Virus record (IMG/VR): IMGVR_UViG_3300042945_002900
Span: 1 to 20,745 of that record
Reading direction: 5' to 3' (one strand)
DNA length: 20,745 nucleotides
Source: a virus
How positions within the stretch are numbered: the stretch's first letter is position 1; every line of letters starts with the position of its first letter. The notes under the pieces were generated by a model, which worked only from the letters and a program-made list of their open reading frames with translations, was not told where the DNA came from and did not search any database. Position numbers and translations under genes: made by a program. Shown here in pieces: positions 1 to 10,269 of the stretch.

Positions 1-169
1 AATACAAGGCTTGACCACCATCATTATAAACATACAAAGAGTCGTACTCGGTTTGTATGAGTCTATCTGTAGTAAAATCAGAATATAGACTATATGGGTC
101 TGAATACCAAGTACCGGTGTTTATCCAGACCCCGTTCTCATACCCGTATCCATACAGCGGATAATCCAT
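1..169 (-). CDS. Unknown Tyr/Gly-rich protein (3' end outside window)
   Basis: The reading frame runs off the left edge; 56 codons are visible. The N-terminus begins MDYPLYGYGYENGVW and is rich in Tyr, Gly and Asp, with no domain I recognise. An earlier in-frame ATG at 178 overlaps the -10 box of the promoter at 177-204, so it cannot be on that transcript. The ATG at 169 lies 8 nt from the end of the -10 box, almost exactly where transcription should begin, so the mRNA may be leaderless. There is no Shine-Dalgarno site. It is the last - strand gene seen, preceded by palindrome 225-310. The frame and promoter are seen; function is unknown. Confidence 0.6.
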   Translation of the reverse strand, partial: MDYPLYGYGYENGVWINTGTWYSDPYSLYSDFTTDRLIQTEYDSLYVYNDGGQALY

Positions 170-176
170 GCTTGCC

Positions 177-204
177 ATTATATAATGTATCGTCGTTTTG
201 TCAA
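177..204 (-). promoter_or_regulatory. Sigma70-type promoter for gene 1-169
   Basis: TTGACA (199-204), 16-nt spacer, TATAAT (177-182). The spacer contains GACGATA (188-194), 4 nt from the -35 box. An A/T tract (AAATATTTTTTAAA, about 211-224) lies directly upstream and resembles an UP element. Confidence 0.75.
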
Positions 205-224
205 TCGCTCTTTAAAAAATATTT

Positions 225-310
225 GTTGATATAAAGCCTTATCTAGCAATGACTTACGGCAAGACGGGCTGGCCCACTTAGCCATAAGTCCTTTATTTAC
301 AACAACTTAG
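225..310 (-). repeat. Palindromic element copy 1
   Basis: Imperfect palindrome of about 85 bp. The core arms are GACTTACGGCAAG (251-263) and CTTAGCCATAAGTC (277-290), around a GC-rich centre. The right end, ACTTAG, contains the stop codon (307-309) of gene 307-441. One of nine related copies in the left arm. Confidence 0.7.
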
Positions 311-441
311 AACTCATCCTCATCGTACTCGTCATAGATGTCTTCTATATCTTCATTATAATGATTGTAGTAATCCCACTCTTTATCTTCATAATAGTCA
401 TAGTCACCCATGACATACTCATTATATACAGGATTTTCCAT
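307..441 (-). CDS. Very acidic Tyr/Asp/Glu-rich 44-aa protein
   Basis: MENPVYNEYVMGDYDYYEDK and onward, 44 aa. I count 9 Asp, 9 Glu and 10 Tyr with a single Lys, so the net charge is near -17. The start at 441 is chosen over the ATG at 447 because GAGG lies about 7 nt upstream of it but collides with the earlier ATG. It sits 14 nt downstream of the tRNA and probably shares its transcript. The TAA stop lies in the palindrome arm. There is no family match; such acidity recalls DNA-mimic or inhibitor proteins of phages, which is inference only. A second acidic protein is encoded at 4268-4522. Confidence 0.65.
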   Translation of the reverse strand: MENPVYNEYVMGDYDYYEDKEWDYYNHYNEDIEDIYDEYDEDEF

Positions 442-454
442 AGTCATTCCTCAG

Positions 455-527
455 TAGGGGTAGTAGGACTCGAACCTACGATATACGGTTTAAAAGACCG
501 CTACTTTAGCCGCTAAGTTATACCCCC
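455..527 (-). tRNA. tRNA-Lys (anticodon UUU)
   Basis: The 73-nt sequence folds into a full cloverleaf. The 7-bp acceptor is GGGGGTA/TACCCCT with one G-U pair. The D arm is ACTT/AAGT with loop AGCGGCTA. The anticodon stem GCGGT/ACCGT carries loop CTTTTAA (anticodon TTT). The variable loop has 5 nt, the T arm is GTAGG/CCTAC with loop TTCGAGT, and the discriminator is A. The 3' CCA is not encoded. Lys AAA codons are very common in the right-arm genes, so supplementing host tRNA is plausible. Confidence 0.93.
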
Positions 528-583
528 GAAACATAGGGTGTCTGCCAATATGACCTTCTTTTACTGTGTGCTGTCTTTACTAG

Positions 584-612
584 TATATATCACACAGCCC
601 TATATTTGTCAA
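584..612 (-). promoter_or_regulatory. Promoter for tRNA-Lys and gene 307-441
   Basis: TTGACA (607-612), 17-nt spacer, TATATA (584-589); TATACT (582-587) is an alternative -10 with a 19-nt spacer. The -35 box contains the TGA stop (609-611) of the upstream gene. There is no CGATA motif in this spacer. Confidence 0.55.
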
Positions 613-1100
613 GCGTCAGCCTCCGAGTCAATCATTTCAAAAAAATCATCTAAAGCATAATCGTCCCAAATGCGGTCGGGGATAATATTCTTACTGTCAC
701 CATAATCTACATAATCATCATCGCCATTATCATATATTCCACAGAATCCCATTCCCGGCTCAAAGTATGTGGCGTCTACATTATAGCCTAAGTCTACAAG
801 ATAGTTATAGAATTGAATGGGTGGCGACCACGCGGTATCAAACGAGATACTCACCACGCCGTCTTCAATAGCCACAGGATCATCCAGTTTATCCTTACCA
901 AAGTCCCACTTAGTTCCCCAATTGTTTACATTCCAAGTATACCAACCGTCAGCCGCAAAGGCGTCACTATTGTTGATACTTTCTGGACGAGGAATAAAAC
1001 TCTGGCACGTTTCGCCGCTATTATATGCGTCAACAAACTTCTTCAACTGGTTAGGATCGTCGTGTGAAATCGTCAGATTATTCATGCACCAATTAGGCAT
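609..1100 (-). CDS. Api92/DUF1281-like ferredoxin-fold phage protein
   Basis: 163 aa beginning MPNWCMNNLTISHDD. The MPNWC...N.L.I opening, the Trp-rich NNWGTKWDF stretch (about residues 61-69) and the acidic tail with D/Y runs match the Api92-like/DUF1281 group found in many phages and plasmids, whose biochemical role is not established. The start at 1100 is preferred over the ATG at 1106 because GGGAGA ends about 6 nt before it and the family starts with MPNWC. It overlaps gene 1093-1299 by 8 nt and is last in the operon 2059-609. Its GCT-TGA end lies in the -35 box of the next promoter. Confidence 0.8.
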   Translation of the reverse strand: MPNWCMNNLTISHDDPNQLKKFVDAYNSGETCQSFIPRPESINNSDAFAADGWYTWNVNNWGTKWDFGKDKLDDPVAIEDGVVSISFDTAWSPPIQFYNYLVDLGYNVDATYFEPGMGFCGIYDNGDDDYVDYGDSKNIIPDRIWDDYALDDFFEMIDSEADA

Positions 1101-1299
1101 CTTCATTCTCCCAGTATGCTGGTTCTGTAATATGTCCCGGAGAAAAACTATTTATTGCATTCCTAGCACGAACTATAATATCTCTTTGGGAATGAGTATC
1201 CATGCCACACTTCTCATGGCACTCTGTATCATACTCATATTCCTCTAGCATGTCAACAAGAACATCAAAAAGATCATATGCGGCATTCATATTTATCAT
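1093..1299 (-). CDS. Unknown 68-aa acidic protein
   Basis: MINMNAAYDLFDVLVDMLEEYEYDTECHEKC and onward: a mainly helical N-terminal half, two Cys (about residues 27 and 31) and a charged tail. GAGGTGG lies 7 nt before the ATG and overlaps the TGA stop of the preceding gene (1309-1311), so translation is probably coupled. The 3' end overlaps the next gene. I do not recognise the family. Confidence 0.7.
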   Translation of the reverse strand: MINMNAAYDLFDVLVDMLEEYEYDTECHEKCGMDTHSQRDIIVRARNAINSFSPGHITEPAYWENEDA

Positions 1300-1308
1300 G
1301 ATACCACC

Positions 1309-1554
1309 TCACGGTAAAAAGTCAAGCAACTCATTTCCATTTTCATCTTTATGACCATAAGTATTATCTTCAACAATCTCTCTGGCCTTTTCCATATATT
1401 CATCCATATCAGATTGTTCTAGCCAATTATCTAGCAACTCATCTGCTATTTCATCATGAATAAAGTGTAGGAAATCTTCGGGCCATTGTTCTTGAGGCGT
1501 AGTATATATTTCACGCAACTTTGTAGCGGTATATTTATCAAAAATATTAGACAT
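1309..1554 (-). CDS. Unknown 81-aa acidic helical protein
   Basis: MSNIFDKYTATKLREIYTT and onward, rich in Glu, Asp and Leu and predicted mostly helical, with no recognised domain. The start at 1554 is chosen because AGAGGA lies 5 nt upstream; a longer frame from 1611 would overlap the upstream gene heavily and has no ribosome site. It overlaps the end of gene 1547-2059 by 8 nt (ATGTCTAA), the usual layout of coupled translation. The stop codon overlaps the ribosome site of the next gene. Confidence 0.7.
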   Translation of the reverse strand: MSNIFDKYTATKLREIYTTPQEQWPEDFLHFIHDEIADELLDNWLEQSDMDEYMEKAREIVEDNTYGHKDENGNELLDFLP

Positions 1555-2059
1555 AACATTCCTCTTTAGTCCACCAGTGCGGAGCGTTTCGCCCCTTTTC
1601 CCATTTAGCAAATCTTGCTTTTTCCATTATATAGTATCGGCGGTAGGAGTCAATAGCGTTAGAAGATTTATATTCATCTGGCATAGCCAGAGCGTATGGA
1701 GTTTGCGTACCCTTTGGCAACATATCCATCATTTCGCACATTTGACGAATCTTCATGTCGCAACTATGGACTTTCTTATATCTAAACATATATTCGTCAC
1801 ACAGTGAAATACCATGAATACCTAGCCATACAAAGTTTGTAATGGTGTCTCCAGCCCAACGTGTGCATGGGTGGTGTTGGTATCCACCCTTGAGGGGCTT
1901 TCCTGCTTGTGTAAGGGGCATCTGGCTATCTGTAGCACCATGACGCCTCAACGCACTACCCATCATCTGGAACGTCTCTACAACCATCTTAGGAATATGC
2001 TTATCGCACATCATTTCCGCAGAAGTTCGCGGATCATTATCTAATACAAATATGTTCAT
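1547..2059 (-). CDS. Conserved phage protein, MNIFVLDxDP family
   Basis: 170 aa with the landmarks of a widespread phage family of unknown function: MNIFVLDNDP at the N-terminus, CDKHIPKM (18-25), HPCTRW (about 63-68), DEYMFRY, AMPDEY, YRRYYIMEKARFAKW and a final RNAPHWW. The conserved DKH..KM..E and HPC..W pattern loosely recalls the pyrimidine-dimer glycosylase (DenV) fold; I regard that as a hint only. The family start is at 2059, with no ribosome site. The -10 box ends 8 nt upstream, so the mRNA is probably leaderless. First gene of the 2059-609 operon. Confidence 0.8.
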   Translation of the reverse strand: MNIFVLDNDPRTSAEMMCDKHIPKMVVETFQMMGSALRRHGATDSQMPLTQAGKPLKGGYQHHPCTRWAGDTITNFVWLGIHGISLCDEYMFRYKKVHSCDMKIRQMCEMMDMLPKGTQTPYALAMPDEYKSSNAIDSYRRYYIMEKARFAKWEKGRNAPHWWTKEECYV

Positions 2060-2066
2060 GTCAATT

Positions 2067-2095
2067 ATTCTAATATACTATCGTCAATTTGTCAA
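2067..2095 (-). promoter_or_regulatory. Promoter for operon 2059-609
   Basis: TTGACA (2090-2095), 17-nt spacer, TAGAAT (2067-2072). GACGATA (2079-2085) lies 4 nt inside the -35 box. Predicted transcription start is about 2060, against the ATG at 2059. Confidence 0.75.
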
Positions 2096-2147
2096 GCGGG
2101 TCTTTAGAATTTCTCTCTCGCTGGCTACCGAAAAAGCAACGACCGGT

Positions 2148-2249
2148 TTATTTTGGCTGAGACTCTGCCCACTCTACCCATTCTTCCCAAACTGTCAACT
2201 CTATGGTATCGTCCTCATCTTGTATATATTCTCTATCATCTGTATTCAT
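2148..2249 (-). CDS. Small acidic 33-aa protein
   Basis: MNTDDREYIQDEDDTIELTV followed by WEEWVEWAESQPK. The ATG shares one base with the TAA stop of gene 2249-2455 (TAATG), which implies coupled translation. It is acidic at the N-terminus and Trp-rich at the C-terminus, with no known family. About 50 bases with no gene or obvious terminator follow before the next promoter. No palindrome copy follows this unit. Confidence 0.5.
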   Translation of the reverse strand: MNTDDREYIQDEDDTIELTVWEEWVEWAESQPK

Positions 2250-2455
2250 TATTCTGTCTCTACATTTACTACCCTAATCATATTCTGTGATCCCCAAAAG
2301 TCAACACTATATGCTACAATTTCACACGGATACGTATCCGTACACATCTTCCTAATCTCTACATCCGTTGGCCACATCTCATCTTGACTATCTTTACTAA
2401 TCCAAAATACTGCTCTATTCTTCGTAGGTTCAGCAATCAGTTTCTCTATATACAT
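2249..2455 (-). CDS. Unknown 68-aa protein
   Basis: MYIEKLIAEPTKNRAVFWIS and onward. The start at 2455 is chosen over the ATG at 2485: the latter lies at the -10 box of the promoter, while 2455 is preceded by TTAGGGA at 4-5 nt. It has a mixed alpha/beta look (FWIS, EIVAYSVDFWG, MIRVVNV), with no recognised domain. First of a two-gene unit with 2148-2249. Confidence 0.65.
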   Translation of the reverse strand: MYIEKLIAEPTKNRAVFWISKDSQDEMWPTDVEIRKMCTDTYPCEIVAYSVDFWGSQNMIRVVNVETE

Positions 2456-2476
2456 ACAATCCCTAACTGTCCATAC

Positions 2477-2505
2477 ATCGTACATACCATATCGTCATTT
2501 GTCAA
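2477..2505 (-). promoter_or_regulatory. Promoter for genes 2455-2148
   Basis: TTGACA (2500-2505), 17-nt spacer, TACGAT (2477-2482), a weaker -10. GACGATA (2490-2496) lies 3 nt inside the -35 box. Confidence 0.6.
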
Positions 2506-2535
2506 GTATGGAGTTAACAAAAAACAATAATGCAT

Positions 2536-2616
2536 GTAAATATATACACAGTAAGGACTTACGACGAGCGCTGCCCGCCGCGACCGCCCTAAACCCTTGT
2601 GGCTAAAGGACTTAGG
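2536..2616 (-). repeat. Palindromic element copy 2
   Basis: The left arm, starting GTAAATATATACACAG and ending GGACTTACGACGAG, aligns gap-free over 33 nt with the left arms of other copies. The right arm carries CGCCCTAAACCC...GGACTTAGG. It lies 19 nt beyond the stop of gene 2635-3024, farther than other copies. Confidence 0.65.
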
Positions 2617-2634
2617 ACGGCTTGGCGAAGAATA

Positions 2635-3024
2635 TCAGATAAAGCTTGCAAACCTATACATTAGATTACCAGCAGGAACGGGCTTGCAATTGACCACTCG
2701 CCCACTCCAAAATCTACGGTAATCGCCGTTTGGCATAACACAGGTAACAAGATTACCTTCACGCTTAAAGTTCTTATCATAGAGCCTATAATCACTACGG
2801 AAATTAAGACGCCGAATTTCATCGTTCGTCCATTTCTGATTGTCAACTACTTTCGCGAGGAATCGTTCTCGTTCACCAGTAACAGGCTGAACGTACTCAA
2901 AATTATAAACACAATAAGATTTAGCATTGGCAAAATCTGCCCTCAAGTTCATGATATATAAAATAGCACCGCAAATGAAACAAGCAATAGCAGCAAAGCA
3001 AACAGTGGAAACATCAACATTCAT
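2635..3024 (-). CDS. Small membrane-anchored protein, unknown function
   Basis: 129 aa with one hydrophobic segment at about residues 8-26 (VCFAAIACFICGAILYIMNL) followed by a basic and polar domain. The hydrophobic part has no signal-peptidase or lipobox pattern that I trust, so it is probably an N-terminal anchor. TAGGAG lies about 8 nt before the ATG. The soluble part has repeated short beta-like stretches (VTCVMPNGDYRRFWSGRVV) but no recognised domain. Single-gene unit between its own promoter and palindrome copy 2. Confidence 0.7.
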   Translation of the reverse strand: MNVDVSTVCFAAIACFICGAILYIMNLRADFANAKSYCVYNFEYVQPVTGERERFLAKVVDNQKWTNDEIRRLNFRSDYRLYDKNFKREGNLVTCVMPNGDYRRFWSGRVVNCKPVPAGNLMYRFASFI

Positions 3025-3057
3025 TCTTCAAACTCCTAGTGAGAAACCCTTTCAACC

Positions 3058-3086
3058 ATTCTACAACGTGTATCGTCAATTGTCAA
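3058..3086 (-). promoter_or_regulatory. Promoter for gene 2635-3024
   Basis: TTGACA (3081-3086), 17-nt spacer, TAGAAT (3058-3063). GACGATA (3071-3077) lies 3 nt inside the -35 box. The -35 contains the TGA stop (3083-3085) of the upstream gene. Confidence 0.75.
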
Positions 3087-3316
3087 GCATCAACGTTAGA
3101 AAAATTCTCTTCCCAAAACTCTTTGAGTTCGTCCAGATCAATTCCGCTATCGTTCCACGCCACATTATCCAAAGTTTCAAGAGAACCCATCTCTCGCATT
3201 TGTTCTACGAAATCCGAATAATCGTCACAACTTCTAGCAAGGTTATACAAACCTTCGTCGTTTGCAATCCAGAGTTGGACATTCCATGTCTGATAGTTTT
3301 TGCAACCGTTATACAT
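3083..3316 (-). CDS. Conserved phage protein, KNYQTWNV family
   Basis: 77 aa starting MYNGCKNYQTWNVQLWIAND. The CKNYQTWNV.LWI.NDEGLY opening is a hallmark of a small family found in many unrelated phages, function unknown. The rest is acidic and helical (DLDELKEFWEENF). AGGAA lies 6 nt before the ATG. It starts 14 nt after gene 3330-3560 ends, in the same operon. It terminates GAT-GCT-TGA inside the next -35 box. Confidence 0.8.
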   Translation of the reverse strand: MYNGCKNYQTWNVQLWIANDEGLYNLARSCDDYSDFVEQMREMGSLETLDNVAWNDSGIDLDELKEFWEENFSNVDA

Positions 3317-3329
3317 AATATATTCCTAT

Positions 3330-3560
3330 TCAATTCTTCTTGGGGAGTGACTTAATACGCTCAAGGATTTCTGCGACTTCTGCGAAACTGCACCATCCAA
3401 CAACATCATTAGTGATAGGGGTATTGTACACAAGTTCTCCGTCCGAGTCAAGCACCCCTACTTCAAATAGACCCTTGTTCCCACCGTATGACATTACGCT
3501 GGAAACCACACTCGCCCCATAACCGTTGTCGAATTTGTAAGTTGCTTGGTAATCGTTCAT
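3330..3560 (-). CDS. Conserved phage protein, FDNGYGASVV family
   Basis: 76 aa. The pattern YxATYKFDNGYGASVV (about 4-19), SYGGNKGLFEVGVLD (24-38) and TPITNDVVGW is one I know from small proteins of many tailed phages with no assigned role. It looks like a compact beta-rich fold with a C-terminal helix. The start at 3560 follows GGAAAAGGAAAA and is downstream of the promoter at 3580-3608; a longer frame from 3608 would begin in the -35 box. The ATG follows the stop of gene 3562-3747 by 1 nt. Confidence 0.8.
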   Translation of the reverse strand: MNDYQATYKFDNGYGASVVSSVMSYGGNKGLFEVGVLDSDGELVYNTPITNDVVGWCSFAEVAEILERIKSLPKKN

Positions 3561-3561
3561 G

Positions 3562-3747
3562 TTATTTTCCTTTTCCAAGATTATAATCCTTGTGATATAT
3601 GCTGTCAAGGGAAATCTTAAAATTTTCTACAACGTAACCATATTCTGCCTGTGGCGTATATACCCCAAAATAAACCTTGCCTTTATCTTGCCCCTCGTAC
3701 CCACAACCATATCCAAGACTACCAAACATCAAAACCAAAGTCAACAT
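3562..3747 (-). CDS. Small Gly/Tyr-rich protein with hydrophobic N-terminus
   Basis: 61 aa starting MLTLVLMFGSLGYGCGYEG. The first 15 residues are hydrophobic and end in Gly-Tyr-Gly-Cys, which resembles but does not fit a lipobox, so an exported or lipid-anchored product is possible but unproven. GGAGGA stands 5-6 nt before the ATG, one of the best ribosome sites in the window. The promoter of the next gene is embedded in its last codons (Asp-Tyr-Asn-Leu overlaps TATAAT). Confidence 0.65.
   Translation of the reverse strand: MLTLVLMFGSLGYGCGYEGQDKGKVYFGVYTPQAEYGYVVENFKISLDSIYHKDYNLGKGK
3580..3608 (-). promoter_or_regulatory. Perfect consensus promoter inside gene 3562-3747
   Basis: TTGACA (3603-3608), 17-nt spacer, TATAAT (3580-3585): a full match to the sigma70 consensus. 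It drives genes 3330-3560 and 3083-3316. No CGATA motif. Confidence 0.8.
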
Positions 3748-3762
3748 ATCTGTCCTCCGTAC

Positions 3763-3791
3763 AGTATATATCGTCCTATGGTCTGAGATAG
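3763..3791 (-). promoter_or_regulatory. Promoter candidate for gene 3562-3747, weak -35
   Basis: TATACT (3763-3768) has no acceptable -35 box (CTATCT at 17 nt). GACGATA (3769-3775) abuts the -10, and an UP-like A/T tract lies at 3792-3808. If real, it may depend on an activator. Confidence 0.4.
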
Positions 3792-3810
3792 TTTAAAAAA
3801 AATATTTGTT

Positions 3811-3892
3811 GTAAGTTGTTGATACTAAAGAACTTATGTCAAATTTCGCCCGCCCGCCTCGCCGTAAGTCTATATGTAGCAATACTTTACGC
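3811..3892 (-). repeat. Palindromic element copy 3
   Basis: The left arm GTAAGTTGTTGATAC...GAACTTATG mirrors the right arm ...GCCGTAAGTC...CAATACTTTACG; the loop is rich in CGCCCGCCCGCC. The TAA stop of gene 3887-3958 lies inside the outer right arm. Confidence 0.75.
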
Positions 3893-3958
3893 TACAAAGA
3901 TTGCCGCAACACACCCGCACAGGAAACTAATAAGAATAATCTTATATTCTTTAGTCAT
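3887..3958 (-). CDS. 23-aa single-helix membrane microprotein
   Basis: MTKEYKIILISFLCGCVAAI followed by FVA: a short charged N-terminus, then one hydrophobic helix (about 7-23). GGAGA lies 8 nt before the ATG, and the frame overlaps the upstream gene by 8 nt. It is the last gene of operon 4522-3887; its stop is inside palindrome copy 3. The ribosome site, tight packing and hydrophobic pattern support a real gene, but it is too short to assign a family. Confidence 0.5.
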   Translation of the reverse strand: MTKEYKIILISFLCGCVAAIFVA

Positions 3959-4061
3959 GTTTATTATCTCCGTAAATATGTTCGCAAAGAACCCAACAAA
4001 GAAATACGCCGCAGATATAACCCGTCGCAAGACTAATAACATCTAATTGAATGTAGTTCAT
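3951..4061 (-). CDS. 36-aa membrane microprotein
   Basis: MNYIQLDVISLATGYICGVF followed by LCWVLCEHIYGDNKHD: one hydrophobic segment (about 8-27) with three Cys, then a polar tail. ATGA overlap with gene 4058-4264 implies coupled translation. With the 23-aa protein it forms a tandem pair of single-span peptides. The role is unknown; membrane-acting host-takeover or lysis-timing peptides are possibilities only. Confidence 0.5.
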   Translation of the reverse strand: MNYIQLDVISLATGYICGVFLCWVLCEHIYGDNKHD

Positions 4062-4264
4062 ACAACTTCCTTTGTCCTAAATGATAAAACACTCACGCCA
4101 CTTGCCTCAATCAACTTATCCAGCATAACCCCGAAATGCTCTTGTCTTTCCATTGGAGTAGAAAGATCGTGGTCTGGAATTTCAAGAGTATAACTCCTAT
4201 CTACAGCGAATTCCGTCAGTCCATCTTCTGATTCTGCAACAATATCGTAAAAGTTATATTTCAT
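4058..4264 (-). CDS. Unknown 68-aa protein
   Basis: MKYNFYDIVAESEDGLTEFAVD and onward: a beta-rich start, then a helix (EHFGVMLDKLIEASG). No family recognised. GGAGG lies about 10 nt upstream and is made by the last Gly-Gly-Glu codons of the preceding gene. Second gene of operon 4522-3887. Confidence 0.7.
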   Translation of the reverse strand: MKYNFYDIVAESEDGLTEFAVDRSYTLEIPDHDLSTPMERQEHFGVMLDKLIEASGVSVLSFRTKEVV

Positions 4265-4267
4265 TTC

Positions 4268-4522
4268 TTATTCTCCTCCGTAATAATCTTCACCTAGCGG
4301 GGTATCGTCACCGTAATATCCGTAATCCTCGTCTGTTCCCCATCCAGCGGAAGCGAGGCCACTTTCATGATCGCCATCCATACTATCATCATACGAATCA
4401 TCCCAACTGTTCTCCAGTTCATCTGCGTCAACTTCGCCATAGTGAAAATCATTGTAATCGTCGTATTTCATATCTTCCTCATAAGAGTTATCGGGATCAT
4501 AGCAAGGGTCTGGATGGCTCAT
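4268..4522 (-). CDS. Extremely acidic 84-aa protein
   Basis: MSHPDPCYDPDNSYEEDMKY and onward. I count 20 Asp and 9 Glu against one Lys and no Arg, with many Tyr and Gly: a low-complexity polyanion. The start at 4522 is preferred to the ATG at 4528 because GGAAA is 8 nt from it but only about 2 nt from the earlier one. First gene of a four-gene unit. The charge pattern would suit a DNA mimic (as for T7 Ocr-type anti-restriction) or an inhibitor of a basic host protein; no homology supports this. Confidence 0.7.
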   Translation of the reverse strand: MSHPDPCYDPDNSYEEDMKYDDYNDFHYGEVDADELENSWDDSYDDSMDGDHESGLASAGWGTDEDYGYYGDDTPLGEDYYGGE

Positions 4523-4545
4523 AATCATTTTCCTTTCTTTCTCTT

Positions 4546-4573
4546 ACTCTACCATATAATATCGGCTTGTCAA
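4546..4573 (-). promoter_or_regulatory. Promoter for operon 4522-3887
   Basis: TTGACA (4568-4573), 16-nt spacer, TAGAGT (4546-4551). GCCGATA (4560-4566) is 1 nt inside the -35 box. Upstream A/T tract at 4586-4600. Confidence 0.65.
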
Positions 4574-4603
4574 GCAAAAAATCTTGAGAAAATAATTTTG
4601 TTC

Positions 4604-4684
4604 TTAAAGTGTTGCCAGATAAGGACTTACGGCGAGCGGGGCCGCGCCGCCTTGACCTAAGTGCTTACGCGGCAATGGTTTAGG
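4604..4684 (-). repeat. Palindromic element copy 4
   Basis: TTAAAGTGTTGCC...AAGGACTTACGGCGAG faces CTTGACCTAAGTGCTTACGC...GGCAATGGTTTAG around a GC-only centre. It stops 1 nt short of the TGA (4686-4688) of gene 4686-4883. Confidence 0.75.
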
Positions 4685-4685
4685 T

Positions 4686-4883
4686 TCATGTTACGAACCA
4701 AGTTTCACCATTTTCATCCATCATTTCAACTGGGGCATATTCGTCCACAATTCCCAAAACATCCGCCCAATCCCAAAAGTTGACTTCCACGCTAGGATCG
4801 TCAATCGGCTCGACCATTGGTTCAATCGTACCCTCTTGAGCCATCTGATCCAGAATCGTGTTGATTTCTTCGAAAGAACGCAT
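4686..4883 (-). CDS. Unknown acidic 65-aa protein
   Basis: MRSFEEINTILDQMAQEG and onward, with a Glu/Asp/Val/Pro-rich middle and a short C-terminal beta stretch (ENGETWFVT). No family recognised. The start at 4883 is chosen because AAGGAA lies 7-8 nt upstream and the ATG at 4943 lies inside the -35 box. Single-gene cassette: promoter, gene, palindrome copy 4. Confidence 0.65.
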   Translation of the reverse strand: MRSFEEINTILDQMAQEGTIEPMVEPIDDPSVEVNFWDWADVLGIVDEYAPVEMMDENGETWFVT

Positions 4884-4920
4884 CTTTGAATTCCTTGTGG
4901 GTTTCACTTGTGATACTCTG

Positions 4921-4948
4921 ATTATATATACTATTTCGGCCAAGTCAA
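4921..4948 (-). promoter_or_regulatory. Promoter for gene 4686-4883
   Basis: TTGACT (4943-4948), 16-nt spacer, TATAAT (4921-4926). The spacer has GCCGAAA where other promoters have GCCGATA. AAAAATATTTTT lies upstream. Confidence 0.7.
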
Positions 4949-4985
4949 TAGCATATCTATAGAAAATCCAAAAATATTTTTATTT

Positions 4986-5069
4986 ACGTAAAGTGTTGGC
5001 ATATAAGGAGTTATGACGAGCGGGGCGGCGCGGCCTCGCCCTAAGTCGTTTAGGGACAAGGCTTTACGT
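4986..5069 (-). repeat. Palindromic element copy 5
   Basis: It is bounded by perfect outer inverted repeats ACGTAAAG (4986-4993) and CTTTACGT (5062-5069). The inner arms are AAGGAGTTATGACGAG and CCTCGCCCTAAGTCGTT. It ends at the TGA (5069-5071) of gene 5069-5377. Confidence 0.8.
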
Positions 5070-5377
5070 CAACTTACAACCATACCATCCATAAATGGAT
5101 AGGATTTATCGTTGATTTTCACAAACCATTCAAAATTCTTTTGATAAACATATCGCGGACTGTATTGATTAATCCGATCCTTAGTTGTCAGAGTTTGCCA
5201 ACCACCACTATTCAGGGTATAGGTACCATTTGGATTAATCTTAACAACATAAGTATTATGCAACTTAATTGCTACAGTACCATCATGCAGAATCTCAGCG
5301 TAGGTATTATTACCAACTTTGCGACGGTTAGCGTTACGCTTTCCACGAACCATAATAACTGCTTCAGCGTGTGTCAT
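5069..5377 (-). CDS. Conserved phage protein, SGGWQTLTTKDRIN family
   Basis: 102 aa. The core LHNTYVVKINPNGTYTLNSG, then GWQTLTTKDRINQYSP (about residues 39-74), then a beta stretch (EWFVKINDKSYPFMDGM), matches a type I recall from many phages and metagenomic contigs without known function. The N-terminal 20 residues are basic. The ATG overlaps the stop of gene 5377-5511 by one base (TAATG). Second and last gene of its unit. Confidence 0.75.
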   Translation of the reverse strand: MTHAEAVIMVRGKRNANRRKVGNNTYAEILHDGTVAIKLHNTYVVKINPNGTYTLNSGGWQTLTTKDRINQYSPRYVYQKNFEWFVKINDKSYPFMDGMVVS

Positions 5378-5511
5378 TATTTGGCTTCCTTTTTCATTTC
5401 ATTATACAACATCTTAAGAAGGGTAACACTTGCCTTTGCCCTTCGTGCTTCACTCTCTAATTTCGCAACCGCTTGACTGTAACGCAAATTGGCTTTTTGG
5501 TACTTATTCAT
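5377..5511 (-). CDS. Unknown basic 44-aa helical protein
   Basis: MNKYQKANLRYSQAVAKLES followed by a Lys/Glu/Ala-rich helix; it looks like a short coiled coil of 44 aa. GGAAAAGGAAAAG lies directly before the ATG, the same leader as for gene 7593-7751. Its TAATG overlap makes translation of the next gene probably coupled. Family unknown. Confidence 0.65.
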   Translation of the reverse strand: MNKYQKANLRYSQAVAKLESEARRAKASVTLLKMLYNEMKKEAK

Positions 5512-5529
5512 TTCTTTTCCTTTTCCAAT

Positions 5530-5558
5530 ATCTTATACATCATATATCGACCTGTCAA
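5530..5558 (-). promoter_or_regulatory. Promoter for genes 5511-5069
   Basis: TTGACA (5553-5558), 17-nt spacer, TAAGAT (5530-5535). GTCGATA (5545-5551) is 1 nt inside the -35 box. UP-like tract TTTAAAAATTATT lies at 5568-5580. Confidence 0.7.
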
Positions 5559-5587
5559 GCATAAAAGTTTAAAAATTATTTCTTGTT

Positions 5588-5669
5588 CTAAGTCTTTATG
5601 TGTCAAGTACTTACGTCAAGTTTTGCCCGCCCGCCTCGCCGCAAGTCCTTATGCAGCAACGGGTTACGT
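5588..5669 (-). repeat. Palindromic element copy 6
   Basis: CTAAGTCTTTATGTG...GTACTTACGTCAAG faces CTCGCCGCAAGTCCTTATG...GGGTTACG. The loop TTTTGCCCGCCCGC resembles that of copies 3 and 7. It ends at the TGA (5670-5672) of gene 5670-5990. Confidence 0.72.
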
Positions 5670-5990
5670 TCAGTCTTTGAACGCGGAGTAGTCAGTATCT
5701 CCCGCATTTGCATACATTTGAGCCAAAGCCTCTACTCGCTCTTTGCTTCCTGGCTTACCAACCTTCACGATCATGCGATCCTCACCACCAATAAATCGCG
5801 GGTCAGTCTTTTCCTTTTTCGTCTTATCAAGATTACGCAACGCCTTACGGTTGAACTTCAAAATCTTTTCCGAGCGAATCGGGCCATACTCACCTTCCGC
5901 AAGAGAGGGTTGGTGGGGAATCGCAATCCCGAGGAAGCACATGCGAGCCTGTTTCTTAGCGTTTTCGATGATTTCAAATTTCTGTTTCAT
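5670..5990 (-). CDS. Unknown basic 106-aa protein
   Basis: MKQKFEIIENAKKQARMCFL and onward, Lys/Arg-rich, with a central LRNLDKTKKEKTDPRF stretch and an ERVEALAQMYANAG helix near the end. Its charge suggests contact with nucleic acid or an acidic partner, but no domain is recognised. The start at 5990 follows AAGGGAAAAC and is downstream of the -10 box; the longer frame from 6023 would begin within the promoter. Followed by palindrome copy 6. Confidence 0.65.
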   Translation of the reverse strand: MKQKFEIIENAKKQARMCFLGIAIPHQPSLAEGEYGPIRSEKILKFNRKALRNLDKTKKEKTDPRFIGGEDRMIVKVGKPGSKERVEALAQMYANAGDTDYSAFKD

Positions 5991-6013
5991 GTTTTCCCTT
6001 TCGTGTTGGTCTG

Positions 6014-6043
6014 ATTCTAGCAAAACTCTTTGGTGAGTGTCAA
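6014..6043 (-). promoter_or_regulatory. Promoter for gene 5670-5990
   Basis: TTGACA (6038-6043), 18-nt spacer, TAGAAT (6014-6019). It lies 3 nt after the stop of gene 6047-6235. No CGATA motif. Confidence 0.65.
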
Positions 6044-6046
6044 GCC

Positions 6047-6235
6047 CTACTTTGAATAATTGTAGGCATCCAAACCCAACTTGCGACGAATCACGCCGAT
6101 GGTTTGCAGATCCTCAATGAGCATCTTGGTTAGATTCTCACTTACTCCGCTTTCCACCAGAGAAGCCATATTTTGCTCACTGGTTTTCAGCAGAGCGGCT
6201 ACAACAATTTCTTCACTCACAGTCAACTTTTCCAT
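6047..6235 (-). CDS. Unknown 62-aa helical protein
   Basis: MEKLTVSEEIVVAALLKTSE and onward: two or three amphipathic helices and a GVIRRKLGLDAYN stretch that could be a small winged or helix-turn-helix-like unit. That is suggestive only. Its leader AAGAAAGAGAGAG is nearly the same as those of 6289-6474 and 6989-7183. A promoter lies immediately upstream (6264-6292). Confidence 0.65.
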   Translation of the reverse strand: MEKLTVSEEIVVAALLKTSEQNMASLVESGVSENLTKMLIEDLQTIGVIRRKLGLDAYNYSK

Positions 6236-6263
6236 CTTACACTCTCTCTTTCTTAGTTGGTGG

Positions 6264-6292
6264 ATTATAGAAACTTCTGTCTAGCCTGTCAA
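6264..6292 (-). promoter_or_regulatory. Perfect consensus promoter for gene 6047-6235
   Basis: TTGACA (6287-6292), 17-nt spacer, TATAAT (6264-6269). The TGA stop (6289-6291) of the upstream gene is inside the -35 box. Confidence 0.8.
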
Positions 6293-6474
6293 GCCCAAGC
6301 GTAAACATTTTCAGCGATTTTCTTGCATCGCGTATCGTGTTTGGGAAGGGAAGAATTAGTCTTGACTCTATCAACTTGCGGGAAAGCCTTGACGATCAGA
6401 TCGACCGAAGAAAGCCTATCCTTTGCAACTACAAAACCAATCGTTTGACCATTCTTGAAAACTTCTGTAATCAT
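6289..6474 (-). CDS. Small protein, paralog of 6989-7183
   Basis: 61 aa: MITEVFKNGQTIGFVVAKDR and onward to NVYAWA. It shares with the product of 6989-7183 the pattern EVF...TIGFV...V...FP.V..V...S.LP..D.RCK.IA.NVY.W over its whole length. It looks like a small alpha/beta domain with one conserved Cys in a basic RCK motif; function unknown. The purine-rich leader replaces a canonical ribosome site. It ends GCT-TGA in the next -35 box. Confidence 0.75.
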   Translation of the reverse strand: MITEVFKNGQTIGFVVAKDRLSSVDLIVKAFPQVDRVKTNSSLPKHDTRCKKIAENVYAWA

Positions 6475-6491
6475 CTCTTACTCTCTCTTTC

Positions 6492-6665
6492 TTATACCAT
6501 ATATAGATGCACATACTGTGCCAAAGTCAGAAATATTTTTTGTGTGTTTTCTTCGGGAAAAACGCTATGATATTTTTTGTGCTTAGATATTGAGCGTAGC
6601 ATTTTGCAACACAGTGTAGCATTTTGCGTTAGCAATTTAGGCCGTGAAAACGCCGTTTGTAGCAT
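6492..6665 (-). CDS. Possible 57-aa basic protein (doubtful)
   Basis: An open frame MLQTAFSRPKLLTQNATLCC and onward to VHLYMV starts at an ATG with GTGAGG 4-6 nt upstream, 17 nt downstream of a T7-like promoter sequence. It is basic with no recognised domain. Against it: the stretch also contains three copies of GCAAAATGCTAC in different frames, and the promoter of the next gene overlaps its 3' end. It may instead be a regulatory region. Confidence 0.3.
   Translation of the reverse strand: MLQTAFSRPKLLTQNATLCCKMLRSISKHKKYHSVFPEENTQKIFLTLAQYVHLYMV
6496..6524 (-). promoter_or_regulatory. Promoter candidate for gene 6289-6474
   Basis: TTGGCA (6519-6524), 17-nt spacer, TATGGT (6496-6501). Weaker than the neighbouring promoters. 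Confidence 0.4.
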
Positions 6666-6670
6666 TTTGC
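6596..6670. repeat. Three direct repeats of GTAGCATTTTGC
   Basis: Exact 12-mers at 6596-6607, 6616-6627 and 6659-6670 (start-to-start 20 and 43 bp, near two and four helical turns). On the - strand each reads GCAAAATGCTAC. A related sequence, TAGTATTTTGC, lies at 7941-7951. Possible protein-binding sites. Confidence 0.7.
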
Positions 6671-6675
6671 CTCAC

Positions 6676-6698
6676 CTTCCCTATAGTGCGGCGCCTTA
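6676..6698 (-). promoter_or_regulatory. T7-class promoter-like sequence
   Basis: On the - strand TAAGGCGCCG is followed by CACTATAGGGA. Against the T7 consensus (-17 to +4) 17 of 21 positions match, including all of CACTATAGGGA, with predicted start at 6681. Only one such site is seen, and no single-subunit RNA polymerase gene is in the window. Confidence 0.35.
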
Positions 6699-6721
6699 CC
6701 CTTGTGCATAGGGAAAGACTT

Positions 6722-6806
6722 GACATAAACCCTTATGAGCATTGAACTTACGGCGAATTTCGCCCGCCCCACTCGCCCTAAGTCCTTTAGTGCTAAGCAC
6801 TTAGGA
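6722..6806 (-). repeat. Palindromic element copy 7
   Basis: GAACTTACGGCGAA faces TCGCCCTAAGTCC; the loop is TTTCGCCCGCCCC. The right arm CTAAGCACTTAGG contains the TAA stop (6801-6803) of gene 6801-6989. GGCGAATTTCGCC inside it is itself a perfect palindrome. Confidence 0.72.
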
Positions 6807-6989
6807 TGCGTATACGAATACCTTTTCGCTAACGCACTTGTTCGTAATAGTTACAATCCAATTCTTACCGCTACCATCCTCACGCATGATAGCATTGATA
6901 ATGCCAACGTGTGCGTTACCCTTGGGATCAATGACGCTACCATACTTACCGCTTCGCATGGCACAGAAAATCTTTTCGAGACTATTCAT
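6801..6989 (-). CDS. Unknown 62-aa protein
   Basis: MNSLEKIFCAMRSGKYGSVI and onward: beta-rich with Gly-turn stretches (DPKGNAHVGIINAI, GKNWIVTITNKCV). No family recognised. The start at 6989 is chosen because GGGAGA lies 6-7 nt upstream and the ATG shares one base with the stop of the preceding gene (TAATG). Coupled with 6989-7183; followed by palindrome copy 7. Confidence 0.7.
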   Translation of the reverse strand: MNSLEKIFCAMRSGKYGSVIDPKGNAHVGIINAIMREDGSGKNWIVTITNKCVSEKVFVYAS

Positions 6990-7183
6990 TAGACATTCTC
7001 CCAAGAGTAGACATTAGGGGCAATCATTTTGCAACGACTATCATTAACAGGAAGGCAACTTTGACTACTAACACTTCCCACATTGGGGAAATACTGACGA
7101 ACAGTATTCATACCCTCAATCTTATTCTGACTCTTAACAAAGCCTATGGTCAACTTCTGATCGTTAAAAACTTCGATGGTCAT
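6989..7183 (-). CDS. Small protein, paralog of 6289-6474
   Basis: 64 aa: MTIEVFNDQKLTIGFVKSQN and onward to NVYSWENV. It is homologous along its length to the 61-aa product of 6289-6474 (shared TIGFV, FP.V, LP..D.RCK.IA.NVY.W). The start at 7183 is preferred to 7222 because it aligns with the paralog and lies beyond the -10 box. The purine leader AGAGAGAAAGAAG precedes it. First gene of a two-gene unit. Confidence 0.75.
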   Translation of the reverse strand: MTIEVFNDQKLTIGFVKSQNKIEGMNTVRQYFPNVGSVSSQSCLPVNDSRCKMIAPNVYSWENV

Positions 7184-7213
7184 CTTCTTTCTCTCTTTCT
7201 TTCTTATGCTCTT

Positions 7214-7241
7214 ATTATACATATATTATCGACTATTGCAA
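7214..7241 (-). promoter_or_regulatory. Promoter for genes 7183-6801
   Basis: TTGCAA (7236-7241), 16-nt spacer, TATAAT (7214-7219). GTCGATA (7227-7233) is 2 nt inside the -35 box. A small inverted repeat (GAGAAATC/GGATTTTCTC, about 7242-7262) lies upstream. Confidence 0.65.
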
Positions 7242-7301
7242 GAGAAATCTTTGGATTTTCTCAAATATAATTTCATGCCAAATGCACATAAATTTTGTGA
7301 T

Positions 7302-7381
7302 GTAAGTTATTGGTACGTAAGCACTTACGTCGAATTTGGCGGGGCCGACTTGCCCTAAGTCCTTATTTGGCAAAGACTTAG
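7302..7381 (-). repeat. Palindromic element copy 8
   Basis: GTAAGTTATTGGTACG...GCACTTACGTCGAA faces CTTGCCCTAAGTCCTTAT...CAAAGACTTAG. The TAA stop (7378-7380) of gene 7378-7527 lies in the outer arm. Confidence 0.75.
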
Positions 7382-7527
7382 AGGATCGTACCATCACCAC
7401 GAATACGATACATGATACCACCGATACTGTACAGATTGATACCTTCGCCCAAGTGCTGTACAAATGTAGCGGAATATCCGTGACGAGCGACCAAGCGGCG
7501 AATGGTGTTTTGTACTTGAATGGTCAT
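7378..7527 (-). CDS. Unknown 49-aa protein
   Basis: MTIQVQNTIRRLVARHGYSA and onward to YRIRGDGTIL. A short basic helix (QNTIRRLVARHG) is followed by two beta-like stretches ending in RGDGTIL. No family recognised. AAGGAAAAACAA precedes the ATG. A complete single-gene cassette: promoter 7550-7578, gene, palindrome copy 8. Confidence 0.65.
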   Translation of the reverse strand: MTIQVQNTIRRLVARHGYSATFVQHLGEGINLYSIGGIMYRIRGDGTIL

Positions 7528-7549
7528 TTGTTTTTCCTTGTGTTATTCT

Positions 7550-7578
7550 ATTATATATATCGGTATATTAGGTGTCAA
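7550..7578 (-). promoter_or_regulatory. Perfect consensus promoter for gene 7378-7527
   Basis: TTGACA (7573-7578), 17-nt spacer, TATAAT (7550-7555). CCGATA is present but 8 nt from the -35 box, unlike other copies. Confidence 0.78.
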
Positions 7579-7592
7579 TACTATACAGAATA

Positions 7593-7751
7593 TCACCCGT
7601 CATCATATCCTTCTTCGAACTTCTTCAGCATCTTATCCCGCAGATCATCGTCTACATTCATATGATCGCAGTACGAATCAAACTCATCTCGGGAATCTTG
7701 ATCGTATCCCATGTTGTAAGCCGCAATCATCAGTTCGTCAATCTGGTTCAT
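7593..7751 (-). CDS. Unknown acidic 52-aa protein
   Basis: MNQIDELMIAAYNMGYDQDS and onward: acidic and helical, with a DDDLRDKMLKKFEEGYDDG end. No family recognised. GGAAAAGGAAAAGAAA precedes the ATG. It is the first - strand gene left of the arm junction. Its stop lies about 15 nt before the promoter of the next cassette, with no palindrome between. Confidence 0.65.
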   Translation of the reverse strand: MNQIDELMIAAYNMGYDQDSRDEFDSYCDHMNVDDDLRDKMLKKFEEGYDDG

Positions 7752-7780
7752 TTTCTTTTCCTTTTCCTTTGTCTGCTACT

Positions 7781-7808
7781 ATTATACAGATATTTATCGG
7801 CTCGTCAA
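7781..7808 (-). promoter_or_regulatory. Promoter for gene 7593-7751
   Basis: TTGACG (7803-7808), 16-nt spacer, TATAAT (7781-7786). GCCGATA (7795-7801) is 1 nt inside the -35 box. A/T tract AAAAATAAAAATATT (7821-7835 on the opposite strand) lies upstream. Confidence 0.72.
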
Positions 7809-7837
7809 GTCTTAATCTGTAATATTTTTATTTTTGT

Positions 7838-7919
7838 CATAAGTGGTTGGTATCATTGGATTTACGGCGAGTCGGGCGTGGTATATATGCCATAAGTACT
7901 GTCTACATATAGACTTAGG
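7838..7919 (-). repeat. Palindromic element copy 9, at the arm junction
   Basis: CATAAGTGGTTGGTATC...GATTTACGGCGAG faces GCCATAAGTACTG...AGACTTAGG. Unlike other copies, no - strand gene ends here. Its centre (GTGGTATATATG) is less GC-rich. Confidence 0.65.
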
Positions 7920-8075
7920 GCTACGGGGGGTTTTATCTTATAGTATTTTGCCCAATTTAACGCCCGAAAAACCTGGGGTGGTTTATGCACAATAGCCAAT
8001 ATATTTATTAATGTATCTCCCAATCCTCCCCCATTGGCCCCTAAACGCTTCGTTTTGTGTCTTTTTGCCTCAATG
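7920..8075. other. Non-coding junction between divergent arms
   Basis: I find no open frame of gene quality in these ~155 bases. They hold a run of six G, TAGTATTTTGC (7941-7951) followed by CAATTTA and GAAAA.CC that parallel the sequence after the repeat at 6617, and a small inverted repeat AAACC/GGTTT (about 7969-7984). It is a likely place for regulator binding, given that transcription diverges here. Confidence 0.5.
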
Positions 8076-8085
8076 TGTGTATAAT
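8076..8085 (+). promoter_or_regulatory. Right-arm promoter, TGTGTATAAT motif
   Basis: TATAAT with TGTG in front and no recognisable -35 box, 18 nt before the ATG of the first right-arm gene. The same motif precedes 17530 (17503-17512) and, as TGTGTATATA, 20587. Confidence 0.55.
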
Positions 8086-8103
8086 CTAGCAGGAGTAATT
8101 AAT

Positions 8104-8268
8104 ATGAATAACAATCAGAATGATCCAAAACAATTAGATTGCAACTTACAGTGCAAGGCCACAGCAGATGTTAAGAAATCTGTTGAGAAAGATATGGAAA
8201 AAGAGGACGCTTCTCTAAAGGACTTATTAGAAAATGGGAATAAAGACACTTCCGAAACTAGTAATTGA
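8104..8268 (+). CDS. Unknown 54-aa charged protein
   Basis: MNNNQNDPKQLDCNLQCKAT and onward, rich in Asn, Asp, Lys and Glu, probably flexible. AGGAG lies 8 nt before the ATG. First right-arm gene, directly behind the TGTGTATAAT promoter. The last 35 nt overlap the start of the next gene. No family recognised. Confidence 0.65.
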   Translation: MNNNQNDPKQLDCNLQCKATADVKKSVEKDMEKEDASLKDLLENGNKDTSETSN

Positions 8269-9022
8269 AAAAGGCGAACCTATCTTTGGTACCAATAGAG
8301 TAAAGCTCGTTGGAACAGAAGCCTTGGCCGATGCTGATATTATTATTTCAGACGCCATCAAATCTAATAGATTAGGTAGCCACAATTGCTCATTCTCCGT
8401 ATGCTATGGATGCGGATGTGAATTTCTGTATAAAATCGACCAAGTTAAAGACGGAAAGACAATACGCGGAGAAGTCGGAAGGGGTTATATTGAAAAAGAT
8501 AAAGATGAATATTTCTTAATAAGATTGCAGCCATACTATGTCATGGATGAACACCAAAATGTTACTGAGCCATTTGGTTTAATAATAGATTTTCCACCTG
8601 AAGATGGCACCCACGTATTAGTTTCTAATTACATATCAAGCAACCCCCAAGAAGTATTATTTGAGGATGGTTGTGTTTTAACTTCTATAGCGCCCCACGT
8701 TCTACATCCAGTTCAGCTTACAAAAGACACAATTTTAGGCAGAACTGATTTTGGTAGCGCAAAAGCGTTGAAACTTTCTAATCTTTGGAGCATAGAAGCT
8801 TTTACTGAAAGTGTTATCAAGTCTGTACTTTCTTACGCTAAACAGCTTGTCTTTAAAACCACACAGATTGACGTTAAAAAGTTAAAAACCACACAGATTA
8901 TCTTAAGACCGTCACAAAAAGCAGTTGAGCAAACCGGCACAATGTTTTTAGATGAGGAAAGTGGAAAGTTAAAAATATACGATGGATCTTCATGGAGAAC
9001 GCTCGCGTATGAAGATACCTAA
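8234..9022 (+). CDS. Unknown 262-aa protein, possibly virion-associated
   Basis: The N-terminus is mixed alpha/beta with a CYGCGC cysteine cluster (about residues 57-62). The C-terminal 40 residues (GTMFLDEESGKLKIYDGSSW) follow a pattern I know from ends of phage fibre and baseplate proteins, where a beta hairpin reads G.....D....KL..Y.GSSW. A 10-residue in-frame duplication (KTTQIDVKKL then KTTQIILRPS) comes from a 30-bp-offset DNA repeat at 8855-8869 and 8885-8899. The start at 8234 has a weak AAGGAC at about 11 nt and overlaps the previous gene; the true start is uncertain. Confidence 0.6.
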   Translation: MGIKTLPKLVIEKGEPIFGTNRVKLVGTEALADADIIISDAIKSNRLGSHNCSFSVCYGCGCEFLYKIDQVKDGKTIRGEVGRGYIEKDKDEYFLIRLQPYYVMDEHQNVTEPFGLIIDFPPEDGTHVLVSNYISSNPQEVLFEDGCVLTSIAPHVLHPVQLTKDTILGRTDFGSAKALKLSNLWSIEAFTESVIKSVLSYAKQLVFKTTQIDVKKLKTTQIILRPSQKAVEQTGTMFLDEESGKLKIYDGSSWRTLAYEDT

Positions 9023-9497
9023 AAATTTAACAGAACAAGAAACACTAGAAAAAATACATTTCGTCATCTCTAAAATCGCCCCAAGATATACATTCAATGG
9101 ATATGAAATTGATGATATAAAACAAGAGGCTTTTATTATATGTATGGATGCACTAGATCGCTACGACGAAAATCGCCCCCTAGAGAATTTCTTATCTGTA
9201 CACCTTTCAAATAGACTAAAAAATTTCATACGTGATAATTTTTATCTCAAAAACGACGAAGAAAAGAAAAAGGTACTAACGCCCGTTCCAATTTCTAATG
9301 AAGATCTTTGCAGTGATTCATCTGACTCCCCCGAACTGTTTGCAACTATAAAAGAATTTAAAGATAAAATTGATGATAGTATACCTTCTTCTATGAGATC
9401 GGATTATTTAAAAATGCTAGATGGTATATATATTGCTAAAAATAGGAAAGAAGAAATAATTTCCTTTATAAAGGATGTCTTAAATGAAGAAAGGTAG
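9009..9497 (+). CDS. Short sigma-factor-like protein (candidate late sigma)
   Basis: 162 aa. Residues about 33-80 read YEIDDIKQEAFIICMDALDR then YDENRPLENFLSVHLSNRLK, the signature of sigma70 region 2: a D..QE..... A...YD.....F..+L...+.N.+RD pattern. I see no region 4, so it resembles T4 gp55-type late sigma factors, which bind core polymerase and read a short -10-like promoter. The start at 9009 is chosen for GGAG 11 nt upstream; the ATG at 8982 has none. It overlaps its neighbours by 14 nt on both sides. The shared TGTGTATAAT motif is a candidate target (inference). Confidence 0.65.
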   Translation: MKIPKNLTEQETLEKIHFVISKIAPRYTFNGYEIDDIKQEAFIICMDALDRYDENRPLENFLSVHLSNRLKNFIRDNFYLKNDEEKKKVLTPVPISNEDLCSDSSDSPELFATIKEFKDKIDDSIPSSMRSDYLKMLDGIYIAKNRKEEIISFIKDVLNEER

Positions 9498-10269
9498 AAT
9501 TTCCAAAGAGGAAGAAAGAATTATTGGTAGGCTGGTTAACAGTCTAACTACAGAAGATATAGCAAAACAGCTAGATCGCGACGTAGAATCAGTAGATAAC
9601 TTTATCAAAAGAAAATTCAAGGTAGGTTTAACGCCCGAAGATTTTGCTGCTTATTCTTTAGAAGATCGCCCCTATTGGATAGAACTAAAGGCCCAGTTTA
9701 CTGATGACGAATTAGAGTTATTTAAGTATCACTGGTCACGTATTATATCACAGTTTAATGATGATGTTCTCCCAACAGAAGAGTTTCAGGTTGTAGATGT
9801 TATTAAGTTAGAAATACTAATGAATAGATGCCTTAAGGGTAATAAGGAAAATATAGAGCAGATTAATACTTACGATAAATTGATACAGGATGAGCGCAGT
9901 AGAGACAAAGACCAGCAAGACATTGACTATATTATTAATTTAGAAAGACAGGTGGCTTCTCTTCGCGCATCTCAAGAGAGTTTAAATCGCGACTATAGAG
10001 AGTTACAGACAAAGAAAGCCACTATTCTTAGAGAGATCAAGGGAACGAGAGAACAAAGAATTAAAAGACTAGAAGATAGTAAGCAAAGCTTTACTAGCTG
10101 GGTTACTAGCATGATGCAAGATCCAGAATTAATGAAGAAGTATGGAATTGAAATGGAAAAAATGAGATTGGCAATGAAAAAAGAAGAGGAACGCCTAAGC
10201 GCGTTCCATAAATATGAAGATGGACAGGTTGACCAACCGCTATTGACACCAGAGACTGTAAAGGACTAA
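9484..10269 (+). CDS. HTH and coiled-coil protein (candidate small terminase)
   Basis: 261 aa. Residues about 6-43 form a likely helix-turn-helix (EERIIGRLVNSL..EDIAKQLDRDVESVDNFIKR). After a mixed region, residues about 130-215 are a long charged coiled coil (LERQVASLRASQESLNRDYR), then a polar tail. A DNA-binding N-terminus plus an oligomerising helix is the usual plan of small terminase subunits, and the large subunit lies 3.2 kb downstream. A transcription regulator is the main alternative. AAGGA lies 8 nt before the ATG. Confidence 0.5.
   Translation: MKKGRISKEEERIIGRLVNSLTTEDIAKQLDRDVESVDNFIKRKFKVGLTPEDFAAYSLEDRPYWIELKAQFTDDELELFKYHWSRIISQFNDDVLPTEEFQVVDVIKLEILMNRCLKGNKENIEQINTYDKLIQDERSRDKDQQDIDYIINLERQVASLRASQESLNRDYRELQTKKATILREIKGTREQRIKRLEDSKQSFTSWVTSMMQDPELMKKYGIEMEKMRLAMKKEEERLSAFHKYEDGQVDQPLLTPETVKD

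Follow-up and report, generated by a model that had tools for sequence, protein, structure and literature searches.

The genome of phage SPbeta has a repeated 15-bp motif, SPBRE, at about ten promoter regions, where the master repressor MrpR binds it (PMC10516654). Some mycobacteriophages also contain families of repeated sites. The stoperators of cluster A are dispersed, repeated intergenic operators that are proposed to be transcription silencers and are asymmetric and oriented with transcription (PMC4351075). The SAS and ESAS of cluster K and the 17-bp dyad repeats of cluster O (Corndog) are found in non-structural regions and are presumed to be sites for dimers (PMC3203893, PMC4351075). 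ESAS have a variable spacer and are located at translation starts, and the Corndog repeats are mostly not near promoters (PMC3203893, PMC4351075).

Here we analyze a repeated element in a 20,745-nt stretch of phage DNA (IMG/VR record IMGVR_UViG_3300042945_002900, positions 1 to 20,745; hereafter the window). A first-pass annotation had described nine palindromes in its left arm and had proposed that they may function as folded RNA, as terminators or as cassette junctions.

Results

The window is a fragment from an uncultured phage that, judged by terminase, has many relatives in IMG/VR. Isolated phages have identities below 30%, and its capsid protein only distantly resembles the Bacillus phage G protein. 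Each of the nine copies was found and re-anchored (Table 1). Scored with a profile built from the copies themselves, they reach 53-74 bits, and all are on the - strand. The copies are real, but the length of 80-86 bp first given for them is not: each is exactly 82 bp, and they align without gaps. The right arm was said to have none, and a profile of the nine copies finds nothing there. Similarly, a matrix of the 29-bp half-module has no matches in the right arm of the window, and none in 472 kb of shuffled sequence.

Table 1. Positions of the elements, promoters and other features in the window, and of features in related contigs.
Feature	Position	Strand	Remarks
e1	230..311	-	82 bp; outer TAA is stop codon of 307-441 gene
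e2	2535..2616	-	82 bp; upstream stop codon 16 nt away
e3	3810..3891	-	82 bp; outer TAA is stop codon of ORF 3887-4042
e4	4603..4684	-	82 bp; -35 at 29 bp beyond
e5	4987..5068	-	82 bp; -35 at 38 bp beyond, about one helical turn more
e6	5587..5668	-	82 bp; -35 at 28 bp beyond
e7	6724..6805	-	82 bp; without clear promoter within 130 bp
e8	7301..7382	-	82 bp; -35 at 59 bp beyond
e9	7838..7919	-	82 bp; divergent junction of left and right arms; no gene ends; promoter 29 bp beyond
Promoter after e1	177..204	-	TTGACA-16-TATAAT
Promoter after e2	2477..2505	-	TTGACA-17-TACGAT
Promoter after e4	4546..4573	-	TTGACA-16-TAGAGT; UP-like AT tract between promoter and e4
Promoter after e5	4921..4948	-	TTGACT-16-TATAAT
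Promoter after e6	5530..5558	-	TTGACA-17-TAAGAT
Promoter after e8	7214..7241	-	TTGCAA-16-TATAAT
Promoter after e9	7781..7808	-	TTGACG-16-TATAAT
Pyrimidine dimer DNA glycosylase gene	1547-2059		Pfam Pyr_excise
Repeated box	6595, 6615, 6658		GTAGCATTTTGC
Second inverted repeat	near 7282	-	
Sigma-like gene	9009-9497		similarity to sigma-70 region 2
Gene of conserved HTH protein	9484-10269		adjoins sigma-like gene
Array segment	89.2-105.4 kb		of 153.6-kb contig
Array segment	161-181 kb		of 231-kb contig
Array segment	21-43 kb		of 88-kb contig
Second inverted repeat, related array	39373-46419		G003 (L062 contig)
Predicted tmRNA gene	4570-4908		contig L083
Predicted tmRNA gene	9723-10078		contig L090

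An absence of copies from relatives had been named as evidence against the family; instead, related phage contigs yielded 211 full-length copies, 181 of them distinct. The distinct copies have no gaps over 82 columns, and 179 of 180 anchored copies are exactly 82 bp. There are 9 to 21 copies per phage (at most 21 per contig), and where large contigs span it, the elements are confined to a single segment of about 13-21 kb (Table 1). Low copy counts in some contigs are uninformative, since these contigs stop within the segment or short of it. A pattern scan found the element in further large phage contigs; isolated phages were found to have none. The 66 pattern matches in bacterial genomes are weak and resemble chance, the best scoring 21 bits, and a search of Rfam returned tRNA only. 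The phages that carry the element are large, uncultured and widespread as a group.

Read in gene sense, the copies have the consensus CnTAAgtCCTT-N7-AAGGACTTAGGGCGAG-(GC-rich)-TCGnCGTAAGTCCTT-N7-AAcnACTTACG. It is dyad-symmetric overall, and each half is a 29-bp palindrome of its own, CGTAAGTCCTT-N7-AAGGACTTACG. The centers of the two modules are 53 bp apart (about five helical turns) and flank the GC-rich core. The symmetric arms described earlier thus characterize the consensus. Individual copies make poor palindromes (at best 26 of 38 gapless pairs), too weak to measure symmetry, and the family consensus was used for this purpose. Truncated copies contain one module and half of the core, or a module alone, and among the contigs searched they are found only in or beside the array region.

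Pairing in the arms had seemed to be broadly kept, as if structure were under selection. We find no covariation beyond chance. At every position of the full dyad, Watson-Crick pairs are as frequent as the multiplied column frequencies predict. Pairing in the half-dyads falls a little short of what is expected (827 vs 856 and 777 vs 833, as sums of percentages). An independent count on 70 copies gave 65.3% paired cells in the long stem, compared to 66.2% in column shuffles, and 71.0% in the two short stems, compared to 72.8%. A slid-partner control is exceeded, as it is for any palindromic consensus. G-T mismatches in the half-dyads are not favored over A-C, which are equally common or commoner, and RNAalifold predicts zero pairs on the alignment. 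The lack of both covariation and predicted pairs points to sequence-specific DNA contacts rather than folding, and the dyad most likely reflects two-fold symmetric contacts by protein.

Contact with a stop codon, at or near the arm, was confirmed in seven of the nine window copies. In e1, e3, e7 and e8, the outer box supplies the stop as its conserved TAA, and in e4-e6 the stop is a TGA just ahead of this TAA; at e9 there is no credible upstream gene. The outer end of the extended consensus, TTGACGTAA, carries TGA and TAA and covers two of the three frames. Where a long open frame runs into the element, it ends at the outer TAA in 22 copies and 5 nt before it in 29; another 45 such copies have no stop of this kind nearby. 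Because the element's own end contains these stop codons, the contact is largely a by-product of a compact genome running into this sequence.

The elements are linked to promoters. A good or strong sigma-70 promoter (TTGACA-TATAAT type) is located downstream, in gene sense, of 143 of 180 copies, and about 20% of the elements are without a close strong promoter. A promoter within 80 nt was found on the downstream side of 110 of 179 copies, in contrast to 5 of 180 on the upstream side and 5 in shuffles. In the window, e3 and e7 have no clear close promoter, and some early-type promoters have no element (for example, those with a -35 at 6292, 6043 and 3608). In the left-arm promoters of the window, the spacer between -35 and -10 very often contains a CGATA motif. 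Copies at gene junctions are in divergent contexts 11 times and in convergent contexts 3 times.

The distance to the promoter is phased. In the main group of copies, the -35 starts 28-29 bp beyond the edge of the element; lesser peaks are at 18-19, 38-40 and 48-49 bp. Of the off-peak offsets (12-56 bp, with similar flanks removed), 21 of 31 are in phase with the main peak, where 33% is expected; the p value of ~1e-4 is a guide only, since these same data, through their main peak, defined the phase, and the copies are not fully independent. The AT tract that separates the element from the -35 scores 10.1 of 15 for its match to the E. coli UP-element consensus, compared to 8.8 in shuffles. This T-rich tract belongs to the next promoter, where it fits an UP element, and the match accounts for what was earlier read as part of a terminator. 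A scan for intrinsic terminators found none in positions 1-8300 of the window (4.9 expected from shuffles). In several isolated modules, the last half-site forms the -35 (TTGCG or TTGTG), or the module starts directly after the -10. Linkage, phasing and module positions were computed directly, as were the fixed geometry and the absent covariation.

Gene order in the array is largely conserved, and whole units have been gained, lost and moved. In contig G018, the element at 104784 matches one element of G019 on its left side (flank 100%, half 95%) and another from its right half on (98% and 95%). A second parentage switch of the same kind is in G020. Alignments end inside elements 57 times compared to 28 expected, in pairs that overlap. 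The suggestion of a cassette junction is supported to this extent, by two clear mosaic elements that switch parentage inside the GC core, but a tyrosine recombinase was not found. PF00589 is absent from 33 contigs, several of them 80-230 kb, although contigs may be fragments and a diverged fold could escape Pfam.

The arrays have other features as well (Table 1). A second inverted repeat, approximately TTTGGCAYGATATTTGC-N4/5-GCAAATnnCRTGCCAAA, has many copies in related arrays. Its half resembles a sigma-54 promoter: TGGCAYRN4TTGC occurs at 0.204 per kb in arrays and 0.010 outside, and the TGGCAC-N5-TTGC matches on which the sigma-54 reading is based form part of the repeat. It may be an operator or a sigma-54 promoter. 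A repeated box, with 18 copies in array regions and 1 outside, is a possible third regulatory motif. The short protein similar to sigma-70 region 2 is conserved in 11 of 12 larger contigs and is perhaps a phage sigma factor. The DNA glycosylase gene is among the small left-arm genes of the window. The predicted tmRNA genes in related contigs encode the tags ADTSVLALAA and GETQLALAA.

Discussion

We think it likely that the element is a multi-copy composite DNA operator of an early-gene regulon and that it mainly turns promoters down. From the layout of the sites, we infer a putative dimeric DNA-binding protein that would recognize the 29-bp palindrome. Two dimers, mirror images of each other, could occupy one face of the helix, one on either side of the GC-rich core. 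This platform would usually precede an UP element and a strong sigma-70 promoter, with the element at approximately -64 to -145 and in helical register, so that the bound complex could act on RNA polymerase there. The putative protein would then be a timing or shut-off switch for genes that we presume to be early. We favor repression because isolated modules often overlap the -35 or directly follow the -10, positions at which a bound protein blocks RNA polymerase. A point against a repressor is that, from -64 to -145, regulators more usually activate than repress.

The binder may be encoded by the host. No candidate encoded by the phages was retained. The small protein F1, the most conserved of the array, gave a poor model (pLDDT 64). 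The conserved HTH protein next to the sigma-like gene has a weak match to "D5-like transcriptional regulator", but the two phage subgroups with the same element consensus differ in its HTH segment, which argues against this protein. Another candidate, G018_5, is similar to a homing endonuclease.

Activation from upstream sites is the next possibility after repression, and the full upstream elements, taken alone, fit an activator equally well. For example, Fis activates rrnB P1 from upstream sites. A nucleoid-type factor of the host, or a phage factor, could activate strong early promoters from the position and helical phasing of the element behind its UP-like tract. We consider this possible but somewhat unlikely: single modules overlap the -35 or directly follow the -10, the GC-rich core is unlike Fis sites, and a candidate activator is itself putative.

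The element could also be a protein-dependent terminator or insulator, a stoperator- or roadblock-like complex that, bound at the end of a unit, blocks read-through. The elements separate tandem units and in most cases contact the stop codon upstream, the scan of positions 1-8300 gave no intrinsic terminators, and the fixed symmetric architecture is that of a binding site. However, the stop codons are provided by the element itself, the spacing to the next promoter is phased, single modules are over the -35, divergent contexts outnumber convergent ones, and e9 is at a divergent junction without an upstream unit. We regard this role as unlikely.

There is some support for the element core serving also as a junction for exchange of transcription units. 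If so, the element could have a dual use, as an operator that times early genes and as a junction at which phages swap whole transcription units. The exchanged unit would be half element, promoter, genes and half element, and the array would be modular and integron-like with no recombinase. We suspect that this combination is distinctly unlikely; it would be a case in which a regulatory site and a junction of genome mosaicism coincide. The mosaics are explained most simply by homologous recombination between repeats, combined with selection that keeps the element intact.

In integron attC sites, which are located at the 3' ends of genes, a central region is flanked by core sites in two inverted pairs. 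The elements are similar in their inverted core-site pairs around a center and in their position at gene 3' ends, and the left arm could be a gene-cassette array with attC-like or Xer-like recombination sites. The four inverted half-sites with N7 spacers do resemble tyrosine-recombinase cores, and the parentage switches and the excess of alignment ends are in the elements. We nevertheless strongly doubt a role in site-specific recombination. In contrast to attC, which has a conserved folded bottom strand and a sequence-variable stem, the elements have a fixed length and no covariation, and thus are not a folded attC; no integrase was found (PF00589, 33 contigs). In addition, gene order is largely conserved, and the traced crossovers are in the core and not in the N7 spacers, a pattern that homologous recombination between repeats also gives.

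Lastly, RNA hairpins that protect mRNA 3' ends or serve in their processing, perhaps by RNase III as first proposed, are hardly credible: each copy can be folded as RNA and is placed at a gene end, but neither the full dyad nor the two half hairpins covary, both pair below the mean of column shuffles, A-C mismatches equal or exceed G-T, and no pairs are predicted.

If the element is an operator, as we favor, it would be part of a previously unnoticed regulatory code, common to widespread large uncultured phages, that most likely times the genes of host takeover. It could offer a testable way into the control of early genes in phages that have no cultured relatives, and a bait for the regulator. 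It would also be a case in which a repeated "palindrome" mimics RNA structure although its symmetry reflects protein dimers.

By probable function, the nearest described systems are probably SPBRE/MrpR of SPbeta and the dispersed operators and dyad repeats of mycobacteriophages. Like SPBRE, the element is repeated in many promoter regions of one phage genome, with a binder that is here only putative. SPBRE is 15 bp, whereas the element is a double palindrome of 82 bp that precedes an UP element. MrpR is a repressor with a tyrosine-recombinase fold; here PF00589 had no match in 33 contigs, although a diverged fold could escape it. The element resembles cluster A stoperators in being dispersed and repeated between genes, but it is 82 bp, dyad-symmetric and promoter-phased, not asymmetric and in a single orientation. 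ESAS and the Corndog repeats are also inverted-repeat families of non-structural regions, whereas the geometry here is invariant and linked to promoters. What is new compared to these systems is the invariant 82-bp double dyad, its phased placement upstream of an UP element, and its modular half-elements.
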